From Rhodanobacter sp. DHB23 (GTDB lineage Bacteria; Pseudomonadota; Gammaproteobacteria; Xanthomonadales; Rhodanobacteraceae): a DNA stretch of 64,000 nucleotides. Under the pieces are notes generated by a model that saw only the letters and a list, made by a program, of their open reading frames with translations, had not been told where the DNA came from and made no database searches. Position numbers and translations under genes: made by a program. The number at the start of each line of letters is the position of its first letter. Positions within the stretch are counted from its first letter, which is position 1. The stretch spans positions 248,001 to 312,000 of the forward strand of contig NZ_JACYXK010000028.1 of NCBI RefSeq assembly GCF_014842975.1. Direction: 5' to 3'. Shown piece after piece: positions 31,633 to 52,098 of the stretch.

Positions 31633-31680
31633 GAAGAGTGAGGCCATGGATGGCTGCACTTTTGATCTTCGCGATCATGG
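31633..31680 (+). repeat. Interspersed palindromic repeat, copy A1
   Basis: Member of a six-copy family in this window with consensus GTGCGGCCATGGATGGCCGC followed by CCGTTTGATCTTYGCGATCATGG. This copy has GTGAGGCCATGGATGGCTGC in the palindrome. It lies between lapA and the orphan gene. Confidence 0.85.
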
Positions 31681-35893: not shown

Positions 35894-37984
<2,091 letters not shown>

Positions 37985-38016: not shown

Positions 38017-38058
38017 AAAGTGCGGCCATGGATGGCTGCTCGCTTGATCTTCGCGACG
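38017..38058 (+). repeat. Interspersed palindromic repeat, copy B1
   Basis: Copy of the family with palindrome GCGGCCATGGATGGCTGC (one G-U pair possible in RNA) and a degenerate tail. It lies 33 bases after the fadH stop and is in direct orientation with copy B2. Confidence 0.85.
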
Positions 38059-38094: not shown

Positions 38095-38141
38095 AAAAGT
38101 GCGGCCATGGATGGCCGCCCGTTTGATCTTTGCGATCATGG
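38095..38141 (+). repeat. Interspersed palindromic repeat, copy B2
   Basis: The most regular copy: perfect palindrome GCGGCCATGGATGGCCGC followed by CCGTTTGATCTTTGCGATCA. It ends 22 bases before the terminator of the minus-strand RNA at 38164-38285. Confidence 0.88.
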
Positions 38142-38163: not shown

Positions 38164-38285
38164 AAAAAAACGCCTCGCGGTGCGACGCATCGAAATGGCC
38201 AGGGAGGGGGAGTGGCCGTTCGAGTGCTGCGTCGCCGCGAGGCGTGGGTCGCCACCACCGGGGGAGGGGGGAGGATGGTGGGACG
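38164..38285 (-). ncRNA. Candidate C-rich small RNA divergent from the LysR gene
   Basis: No minus-strand gene lies here, yet a textbook terminator does: a long stem (10 bp CGCCTCGCGG/CCGCGAGGCG, then 7 bp and a further mostly paired part) followed on the minus strand by T7 at 38170-38164. A promoter sits 120 bases upstream. The predicted RNA of about 122 nt has two hairpins. Hairpin 1 (38255-38280) pairs CCACC with GGTGG and shows a loop of UCCUCCCCCCUCCCCC type. The terminator hairpin shows the 11-base loop CUCCCCCUCCC. C-rich loops of this kind mark anti-Shine-Dalgarno sRNAs (Xanthomonas sX13, alphaproteobacterial CcsR). Homology to either is not claimed. Confidence 0.65.
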
Positions 38286-38291
38286 AGGGGT

Positions 38292-38321
38292 ATTTTATGA
38301 GCGACACATTCAAGCATCCAA
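38292..38321 (-). promoter_or_regulatory. Promoter of the candidate C-rich RNA
   Basis: On the minus strand a -35 TTGGAT (38321-38316), an 18-base spacer and a -10 TAAAAT (38297-38292). The start site would be near 38285. The -35 forms one arm of the palindrome at 38316-38334, so a bound regulator could block or activate it. Confidence 0.6.
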
Positions 38322-38334
38322 TATATATTTGGAT
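38316..38334. promoter_or_regulatory. Palindromic operator ATCCAATATATATTTGGAT
   Basis: Perfect 6-bp arms ATCCAA/TTGGAT around an AT-only centre, in an AT-rich island that stands out from the GC-rich surroundings. It lies 24 bases before the LysR start codon and overlaps the -35 of the divergent RNA, the usual place for a LysR-type autoregulatory site (T-N11-A type). Confidence 0.6.
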
Positions 38335-49282: not shown

Positions 49283-49294
49283 GGGTGAGGTGTC

Positions 49295-49434
49295 GCTGGC
49301 CAAAGGTCTCGCCGGGCAACGCATCGGGCGACGATGCCTGCCGTTCGCACCATGGCGCCGCGGGCGGCGACCAAGTCTGTTGATGCGAACGCCTCGGGGG
49401 ATGAGGCTGGCTACTCCCCAATGACAGGCCAGCG
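49295..49434 (-). ncRNA. yybP-ykoY manganese riboswitch
   Basis: On the minus strand the two conserved elements of the class are present: TTGGGGAGTAGCC near the 5' end and GCGAGACCTTTGG near the 3' end. The outer arms CGCTGGCC (49434-49427) and GGCCAGCG (49302-49295) form a perfect P1. An internal arm GCGCCATGGTGC-like region fits P2/P3. The class binds Mn2+ and turns on exporters. It lies directly before the CaCA antiporter gene, a known partner of this riboswitch. Confidence 0.87.
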
Positions 49435-52051: not shown

Positions 52052-52098
52052 CCATGAGCGCGAAAGTCAAACGGGCGGCCATCCTTGGCCGCACTTTT
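52052..52098 (-). repeat. Interspersed palindromic repeat, copy C
   Basis: Reverse-orientation copy with palindrome GCGGCCAAGGATGGCCGC and tail CCGTTTGACTTTCGCGCTCA. It sits between dnaK and the TMEM175-type gene, inside the heat-shock operon. Confidence 0.85.

Follow-up and report, generated by a model that had tools for sequence, protein, structure and literature searches.

A conserved small RNA with C-rich loops, encoded divergently from a LysR-type gene in Rhodanobacteraceae and likely under its control

The window analyzed in this study, a 64,000-nucleotide stretch of the genome of Rhodanobacter sp. DHB23, carries a LysR-type gene whose upstream region raises a question: does the opposite strand encode a small RNA (sRNA), and, if so, what controls this RNA and on what does it act? 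A preliminary description, made from the sequence of the window, had proposed a C-rich sRNA on the minus strand with its own promoter, operator and terminator. The existence of such an sRNA gene is near certain; the gene, its strand, its structure, its conservation and its link to lysR are established here by computation. Control by LysR is likely, and the targets of the RNA are only predicted. The features of the locus are collected in Table 1.

Table 1. Features of the sRNA-lysR locus (positions within the window).
Feature	Position	Strand	Basis
Small RNA, ~120 nt	38164..38284	-	Start inferred at 38284, end in T run; sequence, fold, covariance model R1
Hairpin 1, 11 pairs	38248..38284	-	Fold; 10 of 11 pairs changed on both sides
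C-rich loop 1, 14 nt, CUCCCCCCUCCCCC	38260..38273	-	MFE fold; C-rich in 84-locus survey
Hairpin 2, long, doubles as intrinsic terminator stem	38170..38245	-	Fold, covariation
C-rich loop 2, 11 nt, CUCCCCCUCCC	38202..38212	-	MFE fold, 84-locus survey
T7 run of terminator	38164..38170	-	Sequence
-10 box TAAAAT	38292..38297	-	Sequence; 84-locus survey
Weak -35 box TTGGAT	38316..38321	-	Sequence; 84-locus survey
Conserved AAATATATATT core, proposed LysR operator	38320..38330	-	Exact in 71 of 84 loci
lysR gene, AlsR/HcaR/BenM-like LysR-type regulator, 304 aa	38358..39272	+	Profile and structure matches; orthologues with adjacent sRNA

The proposed minus-strand RNA withstood analysis. Its fold has an MFE of -61.1 kcal/mol, compared with -38.4 ± 3.35 kcal/mol in shuffled sequences (n = 200; z = -6.8; none of the 200 as good), and the RNA is conserved across the family. 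Both C-rich loops of the preliminary description appear in the MFE fold, but loop 1 had been drawn a few bases longer than it folds. A T run is present on the minus side of the locus only. The downstream oxidoreductase gene lies on the plus strand, ends at 37984 and converges on the sRNA; thus no other owner for the minus-strand terminator was seen at the locus, as had been claimed. Putative long minus-strand ORFs crossing the sRNA region are probably mechanical and lie opposite the oxidoreductase gene. By eye, the 14-sequence alignment described below contained no common ORF, and its lengths did not vary by threes. The interval separating the oxidoreductase gene from the sRNA terminator contains two palindromic repeats like GCGGCCATGGATGGCCGC; the window holds four such matches with at most two mismatches (38022-38039, 38101-38118, 31640-31657 and 52075-52092), where 0.08 would be expected. 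Generic scans of the window missed both the promoter and the terminator of the sRNA, the former because its -35 box is weak and the latter because its hairpin loop is longer than the scan permits. The octamer CCTCCCCC alone is also unremarkable in the window (3 matches against 2.78 expected). Motif evidence from a single sequence is weak, and the proof therefore rests on conservation rather than on motif scores. A search for further copies in the same genome returned chance-level matches only (E of at least 0.159); the best of them falls, by its coordinates, inside the polA reading frame and was rejected.

Of 41 genomes searched with the sRNA at the DNA level, 14 gave a match, and the resulting 14-sequence alignment was used to build a covariance model, R1, with 26 base pairs. 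R1 matched 111 of 197 Rhodanobacteraceae genomes and 59 of 299 genomes of the order, all 59 inside the family. The matches in three genomes (G143, G158 and G183) were terminator- or coding-like without an adjacent lysR, and these genomes were dropped from the true holders; a second match in G051 was of the same kind and likewise had no lysR beside it. Profile searches placed the LysR orthologue in 113 of the 197 family genomes, representing 17 of 26 genera (E up to 1e-95), and in 61 of the 299 order genomes, again all within the family (E up to 1e-80). The sRNA, as recognized by the model, and the LysR orthologue occurred together in 108 genomes, and in all 108 they were divergent and adjacent. 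Such conserved placement next to a LysR-type gene is the mark of sRNAs controlled by a LysR neighbor, of the LsrB-AbcR1 and GcvA-GcvB kind. The 5'-to-5' distance was 72-87 bp in 106 of these genomes and 93 and 130 bp in the remaining two. Five lysR holders were missed by the model (G015, G042, G056, G076 and G103), and reading and folding their sequences revealed, in each, a pair of C-rich-loop hairpins at the corresponding position. Two of these five loci (L197 and L198), among the most diverged members, lack a T run downstream of hairpin 2. With 108 holders identified by the model and 5 by reading only, no LysR holder among the 113 is without the sRNA element, in agreement with the expectation of the preliminary description that the element is kept wherever lysR is kept.

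A separate genome scan yielded 80 LysR loci. The sRNA was present at every one of the 19 best orthologues, which show 58-73% identity and come from Rhodanobacter, Dyella, Frateuria, Luteibacter, Oleiagrimonas and one Lysobacterales MAG. The sRNA search covered 52 of the 80 loci, namely these 19 and 33 of the 61 less similar ones; none of the 33 had a match beside lysR, and some of the loci gave weak matches that were not adjacent to it. A plain C-run scan found a run in 19 of 19 orthologue loci against 6 of the 61 others. At the listed Luteibacter and Oleiagrimonas loci the neighboring genes vary and the sRNA-lysR pair is retained.

The structure was examined in 84 distinct upstream regions drawn from 130 loci. 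In the initial 14-sequence alignment, 6 of 26 pairs were compensatory. A larger alignment of 80 sequences (76 distinct), fitted to the covariance model, omits four loci (L070, L197, L198 and L201) that the model did not detect at E 1e-8; in it, 19 of 26 pairs had changed on both sides, a count reached in none of 500 shuffles, and 98.5% of cells were paired, compared with at most 50.9% in slid controls. The same helices were recovered when these 80 sequences were aligned by MAFFT without regard to structure. This structure-blind alignment contained 92 G-U cells against 22 A-C cells, an excess that favors an RNA on the minus strand. Predicted folds of the 84 loci showed two C-rich-loop hairpins in 81, three in 2 and one in 1. 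Single-stranded C-rich apical loops are thus conserved, two or more hairpins of this kind being predicted in 83 of 84 loci, and the stems around them are compensatory, which bears out the proposal that both loops are kept while the stems vary. The 84-locus survey also showed that the composition of the loops (C runs with a U) is better conserved than their exact sequence.

The LysR protein is of the full-length type; its nearest models are AlsR, HcaR and BenM, with scores below their cut-offs, and its structure matches are LysR/BenM structures. Regulators of this class often sense small carboxylates. The lysR start lies 74 bp from the sRNA start on the opposite strand. In the sRNA promoter, the weak -35 box and the good -10 box are 18 nt apart and the start is inferred to be G38284; across the 84 loci, the best -10-like hexamer lay 18 bp from the -35 box in 75, as chosen by a script that always picks one within spacings of 15-20. 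The palindrome reported at the -35 box proved to be a perfect 10-bp sequence, AATATATATT (38320-38329), which overlaps the box and lies 28 bp before the lysR ATG. ATATATT occurs near the same place in all 84 distinct loci. The 11-mer AAATATATATT is found once in the genome of the strain, where a 15-base pattern allowing two mismatches adds one further site. It is present in 14 of 15 genomes of the genus, at this locus only, and the exception is an incomplete genome. Among 97 family genomes, 60 exact sites occurred in 52 genomes, 48 of them at the sRNA locus and 12 elsewhere; of the latter, 4 accompanied a locus site in the same genome and 8 did not. The exact core was missing at the locus in 13 of 61 lysR holders of this sample, so exact-core counts can miss true sites. 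AAATATATATT is a proposed, not a proven, LysR box. The poor -35 box of the sRNA would suit an activated promoter, but a core lying over the -35 could be compatible with repression too. It is possible, though we regard it as rather less than an even prospect, that this LysR has one target: a single genomic operator would drive both the sRNA and lysR, and the output of a small-molecule sensor would be an anti-Shine-Dalgarno (anti-SD) RNA tuning the translation of many genes, as a two-gene unit in most genera of the family. The lysR holders lacking the exact core make this idea less probable.

The core of the loops is complementary to GGGGGAG. The genome of the strain contains 37 sites of the form GGGGGAG-N4-10-ATG, one of which is the sRNA locus itself on the other strand, against 5 for the reversed pattern; because this control leaves a general SD-like excess, the difference indicates opportunity, not targeting. 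A survey of 150 genes whose starts were matched up in two genomes compared windows at the ribosome-binding site with upstream and CDS controls. Loop matches of at least 5 bases were found in 30 ribosome-binding sites, 8 upstream windows and 6 CDS windows; the corresponding counts were 9, 4 and 0 for at least 6 bases, 2, 3 and 0 for at least 7, and 0, 3 and 0 for at least 8. A 6-base match was kept in all three genomes for 1 of the 80 genes that had a third genome. Thirty of the 37 motif sites were fetched; 17 of these had an open frame of at least 60 aa from an ATG that is a predicted start, and 10 of the 17 were chosen. Nine of the ten candidates matched Pfam families (FimV_N, MacB_PCD/FtsX, Peptidase_S9, Smr, RadC, cytochrome c, T2SSE/MshEN, Peptidase_S8 and LysR), and for one candidate gene (L306) a 6-base match is retained in one relative. 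Loop 1 formed a stronger predicted duplex than a 16S tail in 10 of 10 candidates, a comparison that proves little because the loop string had 19 bases, including stem bases at its ends, against 13 for the tail and the sites were picked by motif.

Together, these data make it probable that the RNA acts in trans, being switched on by the neighboring LysR through the core and masking, with its C-rich loops, the G-rich ribosome-binding sites of several mRNAs. The LysR protein would bind around the AAATATATATT core over the weak -35 box and, in answer to a small ligand, would switch the sRNA on (off being less likely). The two C-rich loops of the ~120-nt RNA would mimic the anti-SD sequence of 16S rRNA and pair with GGGGGAG-type ribosome-binding sites of several mRNAs, whose translation would be blocked. 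The regulator would be spared: in 81 of the 84 loci no SD-like 4-mer precedes lysR, and the sRNA should therefore not act on its own regulator by SD masking.

Other explanations have to be weighed against trans-acting SD masking. There is a small chance that the sRNA is real and that its loops serve to bind a protein or to titrate another G-rich RNA, as a sponge or decoy, instead of pairing with ribosome-binding sites. The conservation of the loops in composition more than in exact word and the weak conservation of targets would fit this, but the loop core complements GGGGGAG, which is enriched before ATG, and sX13 and NfeR1, whose loops are similar, are reported to target G-rich or SD sites (PMC3771888, PMC8844928, PMC10746234). 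It is quite unlikely that the sRNA is constitutive or under another regulator, with LysR using the palindrome for autoregulation only. LysR proteins commonly regulate themselves from a divergent promoter; here, however, the core overlaps the sRNA -35 box at a near-fixed place, the pair is unseparated in 108 of 108 genomes, a poor -35 box is in keeping with a promoter that needs activation, and no other divergent gene was seen at the locus. A cis-acting leader, an attenuator or a DNA-level element, such as a bidirectional terminator or a plus-strand G-quadruplex, is very improbable. The plus strand does have G-rich runs, and the hairpin is strong and terminator-like; yet the downstream gene converges, the pair stays where its neighbors differ in the listed Luteibacter and Oleiagrimonas loci, the stems show G-U rather than A-C pairs, the T run is on the minus side only, and the promoter elements are conserved.

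Membership in the sX13 family, as a regular member or a second copy, is scarcely tenable. The sX13 RNA of Xanthomonas is described as a 115-nt RNA located after polA, with three stem-loops carrying 4C/5C loops, and the mRNAs that it represses have G-rich motifs near their starts (PMC3771888). The window RNA resembles it in length and in its hairpins with apical C-rich loops, and comes from the same bacterial order. However, it lies beside lysR rather than polA and has two hairpins (81 of 84 loci) instead of three, and the covariance check suggested in the preliminary description was negative: the sX13 model (RF02232) had no match at the sRNA locus at E up to 10. Rfam 15 gave nothing at gathering score at this locus or in 20 relatives; the sole alignment at E up to 10 was to ar14 (RF02344), at 18.6 bits (E 0.25) against a gathering score of 58.8. 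The claimed likeness to sX13 and CcsR-type RNAs thus fits as a similarity in the way of working, and membership in sX13 or ar14 fails by the Rfam models. In addition, the genome of the strain has a separate sX13-like RNA downstream of polA (L202:1273-1386, minus strand; 35 bits with RF02232, cut-off 50), so two C-rich-loop RNAs coexist in it. RF02232 matched 40 of 41 family genomes and 26 of 26 genera at E up to 0.01, 14 of the 41 over the cut-off, compared with 1 of 14 control genomes, below the cut-off; this model may undercall sX13-like RNAs in Rhodanobacteraceae. Another weak sX13-like match in the same genome (C19) was discarded, as it folds into a single long repeat-like hairpin. An Oleiagrimonas-like genome has two weak sX13-like matches ~230 bases apart (L288, G063:C4), a possible tandem copy, and a GCGGCCATGGATGGCCGC-like sequence also follows the sX13-like RNA at polA. 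Elsewhere in the window, a manganese (yybP-ykoY) riboswitch was matched at 49287-49432 on the minus strand (52.4 bits, gathering score 45); the minus-strand ORF downstream of it appears cation antiporter-like by eye.

This study thus describes an sRNA family that occurs in 17 of 26 sampled genera, has no Rfam 15 match at gathering score, and comes with a likely regulator attached, through which the inducer and the target set can each be tested by one deletion. Since these bacteria appear to keep two separate C-rich-loop sRNAs, SD-masking RNAs may be layered, with one of them wired to its own sensor. Taken with LsrB-NfeR1, the locus suggests more than one origin for the control of anti-SD RNAs by LysR-type proteins.

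Several known systems pair an sRNA with a LysR-type regulator. GcvB (gcvA) and OxyS (oxyR) are divergent from the LysR-type gene that controls them, and their loops and targets differ from the loops and predicted targets of the present sRNA, which gives no Rfam match to either family. In Alphaproteobacteria, the gene for LsrB/VtlR adjoins and activates the ~120-nt trans-acting sRNA AbcR1, with conserved synteny, and AbcR1/2 bind Hfq (PMC8844928, PMC7486931). The window locus is similar in having a ~120-nt sRNA next to a LysR-type gene in conserved synteny, and differs in that Rfam, searched at E up to 10, aligned no family of this sort with it. VtlR, the Agrobacterium and Brucella counterpart of LsrB, binds three promoters in Agrobacterium (PMC7486931), in contrast to a core that is single in the genome studied here. 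A closer precedent is provided by the rhizobial NfeR1/ar14 sRNAs, which are ~115 nt long and transcriptionally activated by the LysR-type LsrB (PMC10746234, PMC8844928); LsrB activates both NfeR1 and AbcR1, the latter encoded next to lsrB (same sources). According to PMC10746234, NfeR1 RNAs have three hairpins with identical anti-SD loops containing CCUCCUCCC and stems highly different in sequence, and their promoter has an LsrB site at -72 to -57 and is repressed by NtrC. The window RNA likewise keeps C-rich loops while its stem sequences differ; unlike NfeR1/ar14, it has two hairpins with other loop words and does not show the triple CCUCCUCCC hairpins, and its proposed core covers the -35 box rather than the region of the LsrB site. 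A literature search, with most subscription papers outside its scope, found no report of a LysR-paired C-rich sRNA in the order or of Rhodanobacteraceae sRNAs. The RNA thus represents a new sRNA family that most likely acts by a known kind of mechanism, that of a LysR-linked anti-SD sRNA. What sets it apart is that it is paired with a LysR gene of its own, divergently and at a near-fixed distance, and that its core is single in its own genome.
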